64,000 bases of DNA from Flavobacteriales bacterium. GTDB taxonomy: Bacteria > Bacteroidota > Bacteroidia > Flavobacteriales_F > PHOS-HE28. Under the pieces are notes generated by a model, which was not told the DNA's origin, searched no databases, and saw nothing but the letters and a program-made list of their open reading frames with translations. The position numbers and the translations under genes are program-made. Below are positions 357-7,260 of the stretch, piece after piece. Position 1 is the first letter of the stretch. Each line of letters starts with the position of its first letter. Where the stretch lies: assembly GCA_016788295.1 (NCBI GenBank), contig JAEUSY010000004.1, positions 1 to 64,000 on the forward strand, written 5' to 3'.

Positions 357-1466
357 TCATTCCGCTGGAGCGGACCGGCCGAAGATCAACGCCTGCCAGC
401 CATCGCGGTCCCGCTCCTTACGCATACGCCAGATGAAGGCATCGATGATGTAGTGCGTGACCTGCGGCAGCGCGAGCAGGGGCACCAGCAGTGACAGCAA
501 CGCGCGGTCGTCCACTGCGGGGAACAGGGATCCGAACGGCTTGAAGAACCGGGCATGTTCGCGCCATACGAAGGCGTCCCAGAACCCCTCCTCCACATAG
601 GCCAGCAGGAACAGGAGACCCAGGTAGAGCGGGAGGGCCCGCAGGGAGAAGAACCAACGCGCAACGGCCGGTGCGCCATGTTCCGCCGCTCCTCGCTTGC
701 GTCCGTAGGCCCACACCAGCGCCATGTAGGGCACGCCGTGCCCCACCACGTTGAAGAGGGTGAACGTGACGTCACCGTTGAAATGGACGATGCCGAGGTA
801 CCAGCTGAGCGCGGTGCCGGCCAGCAGCAGGTTCTTCGGCAGATTGAAGCGGACGCCACCGCGCAACGCCATCGCCTCGGAGACCACATAGGCCAGGAGC
901 AGCGCACCATACGACCACAGGATCACGGCGGCCAGCCAAGGCATGTGTACACCGAGCATGTCGTTCGGCACGAACCAGTTGAACGCACGGGGATAGCTGA
1001 AATGCCAAACCAGCAAAGGCGCCAGGGTGGCGGCATAGATCACGGTGGCGTCAAGGCGGTGCTTCCAGCGCAGGTGCTGCTCCCCTCGTTGATACAGGCG
1101 CATGAAGCCGTACTGCTGTCTCACGAAATGGAACACGGCGAGGTAGGCCATGCACCGCCAGAACCACAAGGCGCTCAACGAGTGGATGACCACCATGAGC
1201 ACGAAGGCAAGCAGCGGAAGCCAGGTGAGCTCGAAGCGATAATGCCGCCGTGCGATGGGGTCCAGGTAGGTCCGGTAGATGGTGCTGTACACGTGCGCTA
1301 CATCGATGAGCAGCACCAGGCCGAGCCAGTGCCATTCGCTGAAGGTGGCCGCGGGGCCGAACACGCCAGGGAACAAGGCGACAAGGCCCAGGAGCACGAA
1401 CGGCGGCGCCAGCACGAAGGGCACGTCCAACGCTGCGGAATGGATCCAGGGGGTACGAACCATCAT
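357..1466 (-). CDS. polytopic membrane protein with intramembrane histidines, last gene of polyamine-type operon
   Basis: This 369-residue protein has about eight to nine predicted hydrophobic helices. The start is the ATG at 1466, whose ATGA overlaps the stop of the upstream flavoprotein; the much longer open frame upstream is antisense-like Gly/Arg/His noise inside that gene. Histidines sit in or at the edge of helices at about residues 58 (DVAHVYS), 113 (VFHFVRQQYG), 228, 243 (NVVGHGVPY) and 338 (QVTHYIIDAF). Such spacing occurs in membrane metal enzymes such as Brp/Blh-type carotenoid dioxygenases and desaturases, but no family is firmly recognised and the role is unknown. Its operon position argues for a job connected with the SpeD/SpeE/amine-oxidase genes. 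Confidence 0.8.
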   Translation of the reverse strand: MMVRTPWIHSAALDVPFVLAPPFVLLGLVALFPGVFGPAATFSEWHWLGLVLLIDVAHVYSTIYRTYLDPIARRHYRFELTWLPLLAFVLMVVIHSLSALWFWRCMAYLAVFHFVRQQYGFMRLYQRGEQHLRWKHRLDATVIYAATLAPLLVWHFSYPRAFNWFVPNDMLGVHMPWLAAVILWSYGALLLAYVVSEAMALRGGVRFNLPKNLLLAGTALSWYLGIVHFNGDVTFTLFNVVGHGVPYMALVWAYGRKRGAAEHGAPAVARWFFSLRALPLYLGLLFLLAYVEEGFWDAFVWREHARFFKPFGSLFPAVDDRALLSLLVPLLALPQVTHYIIDAFIWRMRKERDRDGWQALIFGRSAPAE

Positions 1467-3070
1467 GACCGTATCTGCTGAAGCACCTCGCGCGCAGCGC
1501 GAAGGCCGTGGTGGAACGCTTCCTCGAAAATGCTGATGCCGCTGAGGTCCGAGTGTGCGAAATGGATGCGGTCCGCCACGGGTTCGGCCAGCCGCGCACG
1601 CAACGGCCCTTGAATGTAACCGGGCGTGGGCACGATCATGCCGTGGCCCCAGATCGCCACCTCCGCCTCGATGATCCGTTCGCGCAGGTCGGGATGCACA
1701 CGCTCCAGTTCCGCGATGGCCTCCTCCACCCACGTGGCGGCCTCCACCGTGGCCGCGCGTTCCCGCGCTTCCTTCGGGGTGCTGCCCACGAGCGCACGAT
1801 AGTGCGTGAGGATGAGGCCGGGCGGCCGATCGAGGCGTTGATGGCAAGCGTTCACATAACCGAGCGAACCTTCGCCGAAGAGCACGTTGTCCCAAGCCAT
1901 GGCCTCGCCACTGCGTTCCTCCGGTCCCCGGTCCAACGTGATGTTCACCACCACCCAAGGCGCATACTGAAGCCCAACAGAACGATGGACGTGTTCATCC
2001 CCCAGAAGCCTCCCGGCAACGAACTGGGGAACCGCGAGCACCACGTTGCGGCAACGAACATCAACCGCTTCGCTGGTGCTCAGGTCCTGAACGACCACCT
2101 GTACCTCCTCCCCCACCTGCCGCACGGAACGTACAAGTTGCCCGGTCCGCACCTTGTCGCCCAAAGGACGCAACAACGCCTGCACCAGAAAATCGTTGCC
2201 CTCGGGCCACGTGAGCACACTGCCTACCTCTGCATTGGCCCCATGACCGCGACGGGCGGCGAAGTAGTGCAGCCCCGCCCATGCGCTGACCTGTGCGGCG
2301 GGTGCACCGAGGTCGTCAAGACAGCAGTAGTCGAGATACCAGCGCAACGCATCGCCGGTAAGGCGCTGTTCATCCAACCAGATCGCGAACGACAGTGTAT
2401 CGAGCGCTCGTACATCGGCAGTATCAGGCGCCGCGGAACCGTTGTCCAATGGAATGGTGAAGGCCCAGCGACCATCGGCACCCTTGCGCTCCGCAAGAAG
2501 TGCGACCGTCTCTTCGAAACGCATGAACTGCTTCTCCTCTTCGAGCGACAGACCAGAGCGTGGACGAAGCCCCGAGCGCCACTGGCCACGGTGGAAAAGC
2601 CGCTCGTGCGGATCCCCACACAAGTGCTCCTCATTGTAGATGGGAAGTCCCGAATCATCGAAGCCCGTAATGACACCGCACTCCTGTAGAAGCTCGATAA
2701 GCCCAACATCGCTGACATCGGGCACCGGCAGGTAGTGAGCCCCCAAGGGGAATGCTCCTAATGCGTTGCGGCCACTGCGCGCGTTGCCCCCAGGCCGATC
2801 CTCCAGGTCGAGCACACGTACATCCGTGAACCCTTGTCTGAGAAGCGCACGTGCAGTACTGAGTCCGGCGACCCCTGCTCCTACCACCAGCACTTCCGTC
2901 CATTCCGTACGGGTCGTAACAGGCAGCGCGGCATCACGCATTCGGTGGCCATGATCGGCCGAGGCCCCGCTTACTTTCACGGGAAAGGTGCGGCCACGAC
3001 CACCGCAACGCATCAGGAGCAGACCACCCGCCGCACCCGCGATCAGTTGGAGCGAACGCCGTCGGTTCAT
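1463..3070 (-). CDS. FAD-dependent amine-oxidase-like oxidoreductase
   Basis: This is a 535-residue flavoprotein. The N-terminus has a twin-arginine-like RRRSLQL followed by a hydrophobic segment and Cys22 (LLLMRC), so it is probably exported and perhaps membrane-anchored, although Arg before the Cys is atypical for a lipobox. The dinucleotide-binding motif VVGAGVAG lies at about residues 62-69, followed by RPGGNARSG near 92-100, which is typical of the NAD(P)/FAD amine oxidase/protoporphyrinogen oxidase superfamily. A C-terminal block (HFAHSDLSG, then EEAFHHGLRAA) matches the second FAD-contacting region. The start at 3070 was chosen because its ATGA overlaps the speE stop. The context next to a spermidine-synthase-like gene makes an amine or polyamine derivative a plausible substrate, which is inference. 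Confidence 0.8.
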   Translation of the reverse strand: MNRRRSLQLIAGAAGGLLLMRCGGRGRTFPVKVSGASADHGHRMRDAALPVTTRTEWTEVLVVGAGVAGLSTARALLRQGFTDVRVLDLEDRPGGNARSGRNALGAFPLGAHYLPVPDVSDVGLIELLQECGVITGFDDSGLPIYNEEHLCGDPHERLFHRGQWRSGLRPRSGLSLEEEKQFMRFEETVALLAERKGADGRWAFTIPLDNGSAAPDTADVRALDTLSFAIWLDEQRLTGDALRWYLDYCCLDDLGAPAAQVSAWAGLHYFAARRGHGANAEVGSVLTWPEGNDFLVQALLRPLGDKVRTGQLVRSVRQVGEEVQVVVQDLSTSEAVDVRCRNVVLAVPQFVAGRLLGDEHVHRSVGLQYAPWVVVNITLDRGPEERSGEAMAWDNVLFGEGSLGYVNACHQRLDRPPGLILTHYRALVGSTPKEARERAATVEAATWVEEAIAELERVHPDLRERIIEAEVAIWGHGMIVPTPGYIQGPLRARLAEPVADRIHFAHSDLSGISIFEEAFHHGLRAAREVLQQIRS

Positions 3071-4566
3071 TGTCCCACTCGGTCCCATTCCTCCTCGAAA
3101 AGGCGCACCAAGGCCTGGTTGTTCAAGCGGTTCAGCTCAGTGTTCCGCCACGCGATATCGGGCGGAAAATGGCGGGCCTCCGCGAAGGTGCGATCATCCA
3201 GGAAGCGGCGCTGAACGGTGGTATCGAGCGGCATGGTGCGCAAGGCCGACCGTGACGCGAGGAAGAATCCCCAATCACCAAAGGACGGTACGTAGACATG
3301 ATAAGGCAACACCTCGTATCCTGATGCGCGCAGCGTATTATGGATGCACCAATAAGAGCCCGTGGCCACGTAGGGCGAAGTGCTCTGCACCACTACCACG
3401 CTGCGGTCGTGCAGCCGTTGTGCAAGAGCGTTGTAAAAGGTGGTGGTGTACAACTTGCCAAGCGCGAAACTGTTCGGGTCCGGAAAGTCGATGATCACCA
3501 CATCGTAGGCCGGGCCACCTGCACGCAGCCAATTGAACGCATCGGCACTGTGTACATCCACGCGTGGGTCCTGGAACGCACGCCCGTTGATCTCCTTGAA
3601 GGTCTCATTGGAACTGAAAAGGCGGGTCATTGCCGGATCGAGGTCCACCAGGTCCACGTGCCGCACATAAGTGTACTTGAGCACTTCGCGCAGCGCCAAC
3701 CCATCGCCACCGCCAAGCACCAGCACGTTGGCAGGCCGCTCGAAGTGCATGAAGGCCGGATGAACAAGTGCCTCATGGTAGCGATACTCATCGTATGTAC
3801 TGAACTGCAGGTTGCCGTTCAGGTAAAGGTGAAGTCCATCCCGCTCGCGCGTCACAACGATCCGCTGGTAAGGCGTGCTCTCCGCATGAATGATGGGACC
3901 ATTGTAGGCCAGGCCCTCAGTAAAGGCCTGCACACGATCGGCCAATGCAAAGGCGATCGCGAACCCGATGATGAGAAGCGTGGCGATGGCGCGGAGAAGG
4001 CCCCTGCCCTTCACTTCATCCTTGAAACGTTCAATGAGCACCAGACCGATCACGACATTCAGGAGCCCAACGCTATAGGAAGTACGGAGTATACCGAGGT
4101 GTGGCATAAGCACCAACGGGAAGATCACTGATGCCAGCAGCGCACCCACGTAATCGAAGGTGAAGATGTTGGCCACCAGCGAACGGAACTCCACCTGGTC
4201 CTTGAGCATGCGCATGAGCAAGGGGATCTCCAAGCCCACCAAAGCACCGGTGAGGAACACAAGGAGATAGAGCACCACGTGGAATGATGCGGCCGTTCCG
4301 AAGAGCAAGTACAGCAATGTGCTGCTGATGCCGCCCACAAGACCTACCAGAAGTTCCACGCGGATGAACCAGGTCACCAGATGGCGTTCGATGTACTTGC
4401 TTGCCAACGAACCCATACCCATGGCAAAGAGATAGACACCGATGACCAGGGAGAACTGCGTGACGCTATCGCCGAGCAGGTAACTGGCCACGGTGCCCGC
4501 GATCAGCTCATAAACGAGACCGCAGGTGGCAATGACGAAGACCGTGGCGAAGAGCAGCGCTCGCAT
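3067..4566 (-). CDS. speE: membrane-embedded polyamine aminopropyltransferase (spermidine synthase-like)
   Basis: This 499-residue protein has seven or so transmembrane helices (about residues 1-210) followed by a soluble spermidine-synthase fold. Visible motifs are the SAM-type loop VLVLGGGDG (281-289), an acidic strand VDLVDLDP (304-311) and the catalytic-type loop DFPDP (360-364) followed by the small-residue and Tyr-rich segment typical of SpeE. Family members transfer the aminopropyl group of decarboxylated SAM to an amine acceptor. The acceptor here is not evident, and the fusion to a membrane domain suggests a membrane-located one. The ATG at 4566 is preferred over an upstream TTG at 4599, which would overlap the DUF350 gene. 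Confidence 0.88.
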   Translation of the reverse strand: MRALLFATVFVIATCGLVYELIAGTVASYLLGDSVTQFSLVIGVYLFAMGMGSLASKYIERHLVTWFIRVELLVGLVGGISSTLLYLLFGTAASFHVVLYLLVFLTGALVGLEIPLLMRMLKDQVEFRSLVANIFTFDYVGALLASVIFPLVLMPHLGILRTSYSVGLLNVVIGLVLIERFKDEVKGRGLLRAIATLLIIGFAIAFALADRVQAFTEGLAYNGPIIHAESTPYQRIVVTRERDGLHLYLNGNLQFSTYDEYRYHEALVHPAFMHFERPANVLVLGGGDGLALREVLKYTYVRHVDLVDLDPAMTRLFSSNETFKEINGRAFQDPRVDVHSADAFNWLRAGGPAYDVVIIDFPDPNSFALGKLYTTTFYNALAQRLHDRSVVVVQSTSPYVATGSYWCIHNTLRASGYEVLPYHVYVPSFGDWGFFLASRSALRTMPLDTTVQRRFLDDRTFAEARHFPPDIAWRNTELNRLNNQALVRLFEEEWDRVGQ

Positions 4567-4576
4567 GCGTTGGTCG

Positions 4577-4807
4577 TCAGCCGTGGATGGCGCTTGCAAT
4601 AATGTTGGCGATGGCGATCATGAAACCGGCGGCCAGCACAGCCAGTGCCACGTTCTTCTCCACCAGGATCATCTTCCATAGGTTCTCCGGCGTGAGCTTC
4701 TCGAAGATCCAGAAGCAGATGAACAGGATCACTACACCGAGCAGCGAGAACACCACGGCGTTGAGGATGAAATCCGGATTGATCGTAAGGAGCATGTTGT
4801 TGGTCAT
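4577..4807 (-). CDS. DUF350 family small membrane protein
   Basis: This 76-residue protein has two transmembrane segments (FILNAVVFSLLGVVILFICF and the C-terminal NVALAVLAAGFMIAIANIIA region) separated by a short loop with FEKLTPENLW. DUF350 (YjfL-type) proteins are often about twice this size with four helices, so this is a single-unit form that may work as a dimer. Its ATG overlaps the stop of the preceding small ORF (ATGA at 4804-4807) and speE starts 10 bases after it, so it is translated within the operon. DUF350 proteins are known from comparative genomics to occur with DUF4178 and polyamine-synthesis genes; the molecular function is unknown. Confidence 0.85.
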   Translation of the reverse strand: MTNNMLLTINPDFILNAVVFSLLGVVILFICFWIFEKLTPENLWKMILVEKNVALAVLAAGFMIAIANIIASAIHG

Positions 4808-4977
4808 TTATGTGTGTAGGGCTGTCCGTAAGTGGCGCGGTCCTCAGCCTTCTCCAAGTTGGGTCGAATGAACCGGAAGCCGAGCAGGTGACCAGCGATG
4901 AGCAACACCCACAACAAGGTGAGGTAGCCGATGAATAACTTGACGGGGCGCGTGGCCCAGGGAGGTGTCACTTTCAT
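4804..4977 (-). CDS. 57-residue single-pass membrane protein of the DUF4178/DUF350 operon
   Basis: An ATG at 4977 opens a 58-codon frame that ends TGA at 4804. The product begins MKVTPPWATRPVKL, has one hydrophobic helix (FIGYLTLLWVLLIAGHLLGF) and ends in a short charged tail with EKAEDRATYGQPYTHK. The start is two bases after the stop of the DUF4178 gene and the stop overlaps the DUF350 ATG, exactly the spacing of its neighbours; without it there would be a 170-bp hole in an otherwise gap-free operon. It is below the size cut-off of most gene finders. The tail suggests a small subunit of a membrane complex, but no family is recognised. Confidence 0.75.
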   Translation of the reverse strand: MKVTPPWATRPVKLFIGYLTLLWVLLIAGHLLGFRFIRPNLEKAEDRATYGQPYTHK

Positions 4978-4979
4978 GT

Positions 4980-6242
4980 TCAGTCGCCCCAGCGGTTCGC
5001 TTCAAAATTGGAGACCCGGTACCACGTAAGCAGGGGAAAAGCCAGTGCCAATGCGAGCATGAGCCACATGTTGCTCCAGAGCATCGGGTCCACATCAACG
5101 CTTGCTACGAAGCCGCCAACCGGCCGCGACCGGTCAAATGCCGGTTGGAACTCCAGGTGATAGGTGCCAGCTGGCAACGCACTGAACACGATGCCATCCT
5201 TGGTCCCCCCTTCGGACCAGCGCTCACCGCCTTCGTAACCGTGATAGTACTCGATGTTGAAATTGAAGGAGCGAACCTCCCCCGTGCCCTCATTGACCAA
5301 TGCACCCCCGACCTCGAACCAGTTGTTGTCCAGATCACGCGGAGCCACCCTCAACTCCACAGCGCTGAGATGATCGCTCAAGGTGAAAGGAGGGCCTTCG
5401 ACCTCCAGGTATGAACCCGCAGTATCCAAGCCGGTGGCGTAAGACCGTTCCTGCACCGTATAAGGACCAGAGGAAATGCCCAAAAGGATCTGCGTAAGAA
5501 CGAGGACCGCCACGGCCGCGATGGATATCGTGCGGAGAACATCCTTCTCGATGGCGAGCTTCATGGGTTGGGCCGCACCAATGCCGGAACGCAGGGGTGG
5601 CTCCTTGGTCTTGGCGAACCCCTTCTTAACGACCGCTGGTTCCACATACTGCCCGAGATACCAAGCGAGCTCGTCCGGATCGCTCTCCCTAGTGAGCATA
5701 TATGGCGGCGAGATCAGCTCCCTCAGTTTGGCGCGCTGGTCGTCGTTCACATCGCGGGTGAACTCTCCTGCGGCCTCAAGTACAATGCATGAATAGGAGT
5801 TGTACGGCTCGTAAGCCCGGCGATCAAAGACCAGTATGCCATTGATATTGACGTCCAGTGGATAAACGCTCAACTGCTCATGAAAGGTCCAGTGGCCATC
5901 GAATACACTGAGCTGAGCAAAGCCATGTACCGGGTTGAACAGATGGTACTCCACCCACTTGAACGAGGTGCCCTTCTCCTTCTTCTGCACCCAGCCTGTC
6001 ACCAGATAGCGGCGGCCGAACAGTTCACCAGAGTCACCGGGAACGAGATAGGGAATGAAATTACGAATGTGGTAACGACGCAGTTCGGATAGTTTCCCCG
6101 TTGACGTTTCACGTGAAAAGACCCTACCACAACCCGGACAAACGATACAACGGGAAAGCCCATGCAGACGTATGACCAATTCCGCGGAACACGTGGGGCA
6201 CAATGGGCGTGCGGCGGCGGGCAATGTGATCCTCAGGTCCAT
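4980..6242 (-). CDS. DUF4178 domain membrane protein with N-terminal zinc ribbon
   Basis: This 420-residue protein opens with a zinc ribbon (C15-x2-C18 and C35-x2-C38), continues with a beta-rich DUF4178-type domain (about 60-180; FGRRYLVTGWVQKKEKG, WVEYHLFNP, FAQLSVFDGHW), and ends with two hydrophobic helices (about 240-260 and 390-410) bracketing an extracytoplasmic beta domain. DUF4178 (YjfK-type) proteins are uncharacterised partners of DUF350 and SpeE/SpeD homologues. It overlaps the upstream DUF4178 gene by 10 bases. The cytoplasmic ribbon plus an external domain suggest a scaffold linking cytosolic and periplasmic parts of the system, which is inference. Confidence 0.82.
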   Translation of the reverse strand: MDLRITLPAAARPLCPTCSAELVIRLHGLSRCIVCPGCGRVFSRETSTGKLSELRRYHIRNFIPYLVPGDSGELFGRRYLVTGWVQKKEKGTSFKWVEYHLFNPVHGFAQLSVFDGHWTFHEQLSVYPLDVNINGILVFDRRAYEPYNSYSCIVLEAAGEFTRDVNDDQRAKLRELISPPYMLTRESDPDELAWYLGQYVEPAVVKKGFAKTKEPPLRSGIGAAQPMKLAIEKDVLRTISIAAVAVLVLTQILLGISSGPYTVQERSYATGLDTAGSYLEVEGPPFTLSDHLSAVELRVAPRDLDNNWFEVGGALVNEGTGEVRSFNFNIEYYHGYEGGERWSEGGTKDGIVFSALPAGTYHLEFQPAFDRSRPVGGFVASVDVDPMLWSNMWLMLALALAFPLLTWYRVSNFEANRWGD

Positions 6243-6859
6243 TGTGCAACTGAAGGGATGTTCTCCAAACGAAGATCGGCATGGTCAACCGTGATACCCG
6301 AAAGCACGGACACACGCTTCGCTCCCTCAATTAACAGCAATGCCTTTCCATCGGGCGGTCGTCCGACCTCCACCTCCACATCATATGGCACCCTGAGCTC
6401 GTGCATCAATACACCTTCGAACGCATAACGGAAACGCGAGCTCAGCATCTCCACATGGTAGGCATCACCCTCCTTTAAGCGCAACTTGCCGCTCGGCCGA
6501 AGTCCACGTAGGTCGCTCATGGGCAGATCACCCTTCCATTCAGAGAGCAATGCGTAGTTGCCGAAACACTGGGCTATCCACTGGTAGGCCAGGTCGCCTT
6601 TGATGCTCCAGAAATTGCGATAGCCCCTGTCGCTCTCTACGCGGACCCTGCCTGTGATCCGAAAATGCTCGCCACGGAACCTCCCCACGGAGCCCACCTT
6701 CATTGGCGACAGATCCTCGACCATGGGCATCTCCACCATTGCACCAAGGTGAACAGCACCGTCTGCGAATACCAATGCAGAGCACCCTGGACAAACCGCG
6801 GCCCATGTGCCAGGCTCCCGGCGGCCCATGTCCTTTTGGCAACGTGGACAAGTGTTCAT
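6233..6859 (-). CDS. second, soluble DUF4178 domain protein with zinc ribbon
   Basis: This 208-residue protein starts MNTCPRCQKD at 6859, five bases after the speD stop; an in-frame upstream ATG lies inside speD and is rejected. It has a zinc ribbon (C4-x2-C7, C23-x2-C26) and a DUF4178-like domain (VGSVGRFRGEHFRITGRV, FWSIKGDLAYQW) with no transmembrane helix. The same ribbon-plus-domain layout as the adjacent larger protein points to duplication, with one membrane-bound and one soluble copy. The function is unknown. Confidence 0.8.
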   Translation of the reverse strand: MNTCPRCQKDMGRREPGTWAAVCPGCSALVFADGAVHLGAMVEMPMVEDLSPMKVGSVGRFRGEHFRITGRVRVESDRGYRNFWSIKGDLAYQWIAQCFGNYALLSEWKGDLPMSDLRGLRPSGKLRLKEGDAYHVEMLSSRFRYAFEGVLMHELRVPYDVEVEVGRPPDGKALLLIEGAKRVSVLSGITVDHADLRLENIPSVAQWT

Positions 6860-6864
6860 TGCCG

Positions 6865-7260
6865 TCAGCGTAGCAGGCGTTGTACGGTCCAATTACCCTG
6901 CCCCATCAGTTGCATGATGGAATTACAAAGCGCCTCAACGGCCTGTGCATTATCGCGTTCGAAGTTGCTAATGAACACATCGAAGGTGACCCGGCCATGT
7001 TCCGGCCAGGTGTGGATGCTGATGTGGGATTCGGTAAGACACACCACCGATGTGAACCCCGCGTTCGGAAAGGCATGATGCACGGCACCTACGCTCACAA
7101 GTCCCAGCATGGCGACCTGTTCCTCCACCATGGACTTGAAGCCCACCATATCATGCAACGGAGCAGCGACAAGACCTTCTCCATCAACAACCACGTGCAA
7201 CCCTCGCCTATACGGACGCGCTCCCAGTTCACCCACTTCACGTGAAAGTTCAGCTTTCAT
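6865..7260 (-). CDS. speD: SpeD-like pyruvoyl-dependent decarboxylase proenzyme
   Basis: This 131-residue protein carries the self-cleavage motif LTESHISIHTWPEHG, where Ser78 would become the pyruvoyl group and His83 matches the processing/catalytic His of bacterial class 1b S-adenosylmethionine decarboxylases. In the Thermotoga maritima enzyme a catalytic Cys lies 20 residues after the serine; here that position is Ser98 (DVFISNF). The canonical reaction makes the aminopropyl donor for SpeE, and the operon supports that, but some SpeD homologues have been reported to be pyruvoyl-dependent ornithine or arginine decarboxylases. The ATG at 7260 fits the family length. The 182-bp divergent spacer to 7443 must hold the operon promoter, though no clear TTG/TAnnTTTG pair stands out. 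Confidence 0.85.
   Translation of the reverse strand: MKAELSREVGELGARPYRRGLHVVVDGEGLVAAPLHDMVGFKSMVEEQVAMLGLVSVGAVHHAFPNAGFTSVVCLTESHISIHTWPEHGRVTFDVFISNFERDNAQAVEALCNSIMQLMGQGNWTVQRLLR

Follow-up and report, generated by a model that had tools for sequence, protein, structure and literature searches.

An operon for a membrane-fused SpeE in a Flavobacteriales bacterium encodes a small membrane peptide with an invariant His-Lys end, a candidate aminopropyl acceptor

The window analyzed here is a stretch of 64,000 nucleotides from a Flavobacteriales bacterium (assembly GCA_016788295.1, contig JAEUSY010000004.1, positions 1 to 64,000). Open reading frame (ORF) analysis places eight tightly packed genes, all on the minus strand, at 357-7260 (Table 1). 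They include genes for a membrane-fused homolog of spermidine synthase, SpeE, and for SpeD, DUF4178, DUF350, flavin and His-rich proteins. The overlooked element of this operon type is a small transmembrane (TM) protein with an invariant His-Lys end. We propose, with a probability of roughly 40%, that the operon encodes an inner-membrane machine that builds a polyamine-like arm on this membrane-anchored peptide, in which SpeE would aminopropylate the terminal Lys of the tail.

The small protein is encoded between the DUF4178 and DUF350 genes. It is short, has one TM helix and an N-terminus that is usually positively charged, and found no family match in profile searches. Its sequence is too variable to align except at the C-terminus, where the tail closes with His-Lys and a free carboxyl group in 27 of 27 Bacteroidota operons (in one as a DUF4178 fusion). 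Among 24 tabulated tails, 22 carry Tyr or Phe at −4; Tyr is frequent at −3, and little is conserved further in. The natural fusion, L034:11195-12589, joins the tail to the end of DUF4178 via an extra TM helix and finishes in Ser-His-Lys. As a background, His-Lys ends only one of 628 ORFs of at least 150 residues. The His codons of the tails are a mixture of CAT and CAC, which indicates that selection acts on the protein. A trivial cause, the overlap of the tail stop codon with the DUF350 start, was rejected, as this overlap occurs in the window and in L025, a locus with all eight genes, but most other operons have the two genes spaced apart.

The terminal Lys extends to more distant systems. 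Novosphingobium tails end in GPSHK or GPTHK, and the Burkholderia small protein has a lipobox-like leader and the end SYGSHK. Lys without a neighboring His terminates the proteins of Gemmatirosa (RHGK), Tritonibacter (NRVK) and Ensifer (ESGK), while five PSP-type lipoproteins of about 240 residues end in GGFGK (three of them), GGSGGK and GSFGK. Of the SpeE systems, 40 yielded a tail protein, and all 40 of these proteins end in Lys.

Searches covered 297 genomes from the phylum and 395 from the class, and the flanks were then read. A Flavobacteriales metagenome-assembled genome (L025) holds all eight genes in identical order, and the core of DUF4178, small TM peptide, DUF350 and SpeE is shared by 27 operons of Bacteroidota, which represent at least 17 families and include the window and L025. 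The arrangement is therefore not due to chance. SpeD and the flavoprotein are each found in 25 of the 27 operons and the His-rich protein in 20; one operon (L072) appears frameshifted. Related clusters also lie on plasmids of Novosphingobium, Burkholderia and Gemmatirosa. Fifteen genomes sampled from the genus to which the window belongs all lack this SpeE; the distribution is therefore patchy, and horizontal transfer is likely. The original prediction, made from the window's DNA, had described eight minus-strand genes with overlaps or spacers of at most 10 bp. All of the ORFs are in place, and their junctions, which range between an overlap of 10 bases and a spacer of 10 bases, agree with that description. 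At L043:7008-7802 an Ion_trans ion-channel gene sits within a cluster of SpeD, DUF4178, a Lys-tailed lipoprotein and SpeE; one idea is that a tethered polyamine tail could plug the channel there.

The last residue of the tail is different in systems with an ATP-grasp enzyme. Of 16 tails beside PF03738 ATP-grasp genes, two are those of E. coli YjfM and YgiB and 14 lie next to further PF03738 genes of this phylum; all 16 terminate in Gly, Ser, Ala or Leu and none in Lys. The tails of YjfM and YgiB are rich in Gly, Ser, Arg and aromatic residues like those of the SpeE systems, but they end in Gly-Gly. A terminal Lys was counted in 39 of 39 SpeE-only systems versus 0 of 16 ATP-grasp systems (Fisher p = 3e-14, not corrected for shared ancestry and computed prior to the addition of the fortieth Lys-ended case). 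In these sequences, what goes with the absence of ATP-grasp is the replacement of a small terminal residue by Lys, and the window's genome (G000) gave no match to the PF03738 ligase. In RefSeq, E. coli YjfC and YgiC are named peptide-spermidine ligase, a name that follows Pederick et al. 2023 as cited in PMC12270671. Two of the 14 further tails belong to systems with both enzymes: at L040 and L041 (also listed as L102 and L103), a GSP_synth ATP-grasp gene and a membrane SpeE gene lie on opposite strands and the tail ends in Tyr-Gly-Gly; these loci may be an intermediate between the two chemistries.

SpeE itself scores over the curated NF002956/PRK03612 polyamine aminopropyltransferase cut-off (652.8 versus 472 bits), and its GGGDG, DxPDP, YHE and Q motifs, which serve catalysis and the binding of decarboxylated S-adenosylmethionine (dcSAM), are kept in 15 of 15 aligned operons. 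G285-G289, D308, D310, D342, D360, D363, Y263, H264 and Q394 are invariant in the same 15. The nearest solved relative of the catalytic domain in the PDB is thermospermine synthase 6bq2, an enzyme that extends an already substituted amine. Compared with class 1b AdoMet decarboxylases, SpeD keeps the pyruvoyl-forming Ser and the His in ESHxxIHTWPE and falls just under the TIGR03330 equivalog cut-off (73.3 versus 75.65); in its TCG motif, Ser replaces the catalytic Cys of T. maritima SpeD. The SpeDs with this replacement (FLSNY or FISNF) are those of the window, L025-L027, L032, L066-L071, L073, L074 and L077, and the other group has Cys (YLCNY). Two positions past ESH, the Ser group mostly has Ser or Ala, and the Cys group has Cys.

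Given the polyamine genes of the window genome, ordinary spermidine synthesis is not the obvious job of SpeE. The operon SpeE is the single strong spermidine-synthase match in this genome. No carboxynorspermidine decarboxylase was found there over the cut-off, and spermidine formation by that route was rejected because the matches were far below it. Another contig encodes, about 7 kb apart, an ADC-like protein and a protein of the deoxyhypusine-synthase family (DS family, homospermidine-synthase type). In bacteria such a pair fits homospermidine synthesis, and homospermidine is a possible free acceptor of SpeE. The originally predicted membrane-located aminopropyl-transfer system was thus upheld as a conserved one whose task is probably not ordinary spermidine synthesis.

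Based on these observations, a mechanism can be proposed. SpeD would make dcSAM, and the seven-TM SpeE, together with the DUF350 protein and the DUF4178 protein, would aminopropylate the terminal Lys of the tail at its epsilon-amine. As the Lys side chain equals the aminobutylamine half of putrescine, the normal acceptor of SpeE, the product would be a peptide-bound spermidine-like group. In sister DUF350 systems, a YjfC/YgiC-type ATP-grasp ligase would couple spermidine to the peptide C-terminus and give an equivalent product. The flavoprotein, exported by Tat, and the His-rich membrane protein would form a periplasmic accessory module that probably oxidizes the modified tail. We infer three things here: the transfer reaction itself, Lys as the residue that receives the group, and what the oxidase does. 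The original prediction had left the acceptor as an unknown one, such as a lipid or envelope peptide; the peptide guess now gains a candidate in the small TM protein. More specifically, and somewhat more tentatively than the overall proposal, we suggest that SpeE is a protein-modifying enzyme that makes N-epsilon-(3-aminopropyl)lysine from dcSAM at the C-terminus of a dedicated membrane peptide, as a bacterial counterpart of hypusine, and that two unrelated chemistries, ATP-grasp amidation and alkylation of the S-adenosylmethionine type, have converged on membrane-tethered spermidine. Spermidine synthases fused to membrane domains are reportedly widespread, and the terminal Lys on a co-operonic peptide names a candidate acceptor for them. 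If this is true, polyamine chemistry decorates envelope proteins, and DUF350, DUF4178 and the PSP-linked lipoproteins gain a common function.

The topology of SpeE bears on this proposal. Our small dynamic-programming model, used with the positive-inside rule, scored seven TM helices best, with the N-terminus inside and the catalytic domain in the periplasm (183, against 170.5 for the highest-scoring model that places the domain in the cytosol). This weakly favors a periplasmic catalytic domain, which would put the domain, the predicted periplasmic tail and the flavoprotein on one side of the membrane.

Several points weigh against the proposal. With tail and catalytic domain both in the periplasm, dcSAM must cross the membrane, as SpeD has no export signal; with a cytosolic domain, the tail must be modified before export. 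Ser stands in place of Cys in the SpeD of 14 operons including that of the window, so that SpeD activity is not assured. At L039 the other core genes are present and a search for the tail protein found none. L078-L081, of one family, have the membrane SpeE without DUF350, DUF4178 or tail. At L040 and L041, where the tail ends in Gly-Gly beside an ATP-grasp gene, SpeE must have another task or take the conjugate as its substrate. For the distant systems, tail proteins were chosen by position. The SpeE of L078-L081 mostly adjoins a protein of about 700 residues and small conserved genes, which is another enzyme context.

The transfer could instead end on a free polyamine at the membrane, most likely homospermidine or agmatine, with the Lys peptide in a regulatory or docking role and the flavoprotein oxidizing the exported polyamine. 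The DS-family and ADC-like genes of the genome would fit this, as would the kinship of the SpeE domain to thermospermine synthase, since such enzymes can use homospermidine (PMC11107197). We nevertheless hold it to be doubtful, because it does not account for a freely varying peptide with a fixed terminal Lys, or for the loss of this Lys beside ATP-grasp. Li and co-workers are said to have found functional S-adenosylmethionine decarboxylases (AdoMetDCs) beside MFS-spermidine synthase fusions in species free of spermidine, and a speE mutant reportedly was not complemented by such a fusion, which counts against a free polyamine as well.

A somewhat less probable explanation, in our judgment an unlikely one, makes the His-Lys tail a binding or regulatory element that docks in a SpeE/DUF350/DUF4178 complex, binds metal or is trimmed by a carboxypeptidase, with no covalent modification at all. 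Tails rich in Gly, Ser, Arg and aromatic residues are what a flexible docking strand would look like, and the His beside Lys is conserved in the oxidase-type operons; the change from Lys to a small residue where a peptide-spermidine ligase replaces SpeE would not be predicted by it. Aminopropylation of a lipid head group such as phosphatidylethanolamine, with the other genes handling the aminopropyl-lipid, we regard as very improbable: SpeE has its seven TM helices and the partners are membrane-anchored except SpeD and the first DUF4178-like protein, but no operon seen contains a lipid-handling domain and the tail is left unexplained.

The flavoprotein and the His-rich protein appear to stand apart from the core. 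At the N-terminus of most flavoproteins of the operon set, a Tat-type RR motif precedes a lipobox-like Cys. For the window's flavoprotein, matches above threshold in the PDB cover mainly the N-terminal segment that binds flavin adenine dinucleotide (FAD), and the best NCBIfam score, 62.9 bits to HpnE, is well below the HpnE cut-off. "Polyamine oxidase" is therefore a guess, as only the FAD-binding segment strongly resembles known amine oxidases. The His-rich protein has no match in Pfam, NCBIfam or the PDB. Its invariant residues D55, H58, H113, R116, Q117, H243, H338 and D342 suggest a possible metal or haem site. In this family (L056-L064 and 357-1466 of the window), conserved His residues are distributed across TM segments in DxxH, HxxRQxYG, HxxxY and HYxxDxFIW motifs. 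Distant relatives in other classes are solitary genes of 400-450 codons beside housekeeping genes, with no polyamine genes, and gave no clue to a partner. AlphaFold2 models from two-sequence input (window and L025) reached a mean pLDDT of 41 for the His-rich protein and 36 for the flavoprotein, and neither was used for a fold search.

The original prediction had these two proteins apparently replace the usual ATP-grasp partner, a claim that the operons do not support. In the Flavobacteriia operons L037 and L038 both are absent beside the core while the core and the His-Lys tail persist, and the flavoprotein is missing from the whole genomes of both. The flavoprotein as the replacement was rejected, since G258 and G290 have no flavoprotein but retain the core. 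The best reading is that the two form a periplasmic accessory module.

The operon products are listed in Table 1. Of the domain labels first given to them, SpeD, the second DUF4178, DUF350, SpeE and the flavoprotein were confirmed; the first DUF4178 was not. The DUF4178 model matches the second copy only (47.8 bits) and the first shows weak zinc ribbons, although the Novosphingobium gene at this position carries a DUF4178 annotation. SpeD and this first protein are the only operon products without a membrane anchor.

Table 1 Features of the operon in the window (TM and periplasmic parts of the 420-residue DUF4178 protein were judged by eye from the sequence)
Feature	Coordinates	Strand	Evidence
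SpeD-like pyruvoyl S-adenosylmethionine decarboxylase, 131 aa	6865..7260	-	AdoMet_dc 77.3 bits
Zinc-ribbon, DUF4178-like protein, 208 aa	6233..6859	-	Pfam: weak zinc ribbon only
Zinc ribbon, DUF4178, TM, predicted periplasmic beta domain and TM, 420 aa	4980..6242	-	DUF4178 47.8 bits
Single-TM tail peptide, 57 aa, predicted N-in/C-out, candidate aminopropyl acceptor	4804..4977	-	C-terminal His-Lys
Tyr-Thr-His-Lys codons of the tail peptide	4807..4818	-	Lys 4809-4807, His 4812-4810, stop 4806-4804 (codon table)
Short DUF350 membrane protein, 76 aa	4577..4807	-	PF03994 52.9 bits
Membrane SpeE, 499 aa, 7 predicted TM helices and aminopropyltransferase domain	3067..4566	-	NF002956 652.8 bits
FAD amine-oxidase-superfamily protein, 535 aa, Tat leader and lipobox-like Cys	1463..3070	-	Amino_oxidase 82.9 bits, HpnE 62.9 bits
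His-rich polytopic membrane protein, 369 aa, new family	357..1466	-	Conserved residues, no family match

The operon type and the idea of aminopropylating something other than putrescine are already published, without a named acceptor, so the main inference of the original prediction was in print as a hypothesis. Ravi et al. 2024 (PMC11237479) describe operons with a fusion of seven TM helices to spermidine synthase (7TM-SpeE), DUF350, DUF4178 and a novel lipoprotein. Some further variants contain an ATP-grasp enzyme, and another has AdoMetDC together with a polyamine oxidase. With reference to Li et al. 2019, they suggest that other substrates are aminopropylated; the passages used here make no mention of a terminal Lys. 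Compared with the PspA-CesT/Tir operons as presented there, the window operon shares the whole core: a SpeE fusion, DUF350, DUF4178 and a membrane-anchored small protein are all present. It differs in that the PspA-CesT/Tir dyad is not among its eight genes, its DUF350 is short, it has the extra His-rich protein, and a TM peptide of 57 residues takes the place of a lipoprotein of about 240.

Other known systems share parts of this design. The E. coli yjfIJKLMC and ygiBC operons likewise have a membrane-anchored protein with a Gly/Ser/Arg tail, YjfM or YgiB, beside a polyamine-attaching enzyme, and in yjf a DUF350 protein (YjfL), but they use an ATP-grasp ligase for SpeE, have a Gly-Gly tail and contain no SpeD or flavoprotein. 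P. aeruginosa PA4773-PA4774 (SpeD2/SpeE2), linked to antibiotic resistance, also places SpeD beside an aminopropyltransferase, but PA4774 is a shown thermospermine synthase that acts on free spermidine; thermospermine synthases are able to use homospermidine (PMC11107197). On the Novosphingobium plasmid NZ_CP063446 (L084), two DUF4178 genes, a PSHK-ended peptide of 48 residues, DUF350, SpeE, flavoprotein and SpeD are contiguous. This cluster differs by an extra SPFH (band-7) gene, the lack of the His-rich protein and the last position of SpeD, and its SpeE is 51% identical to that of the window.

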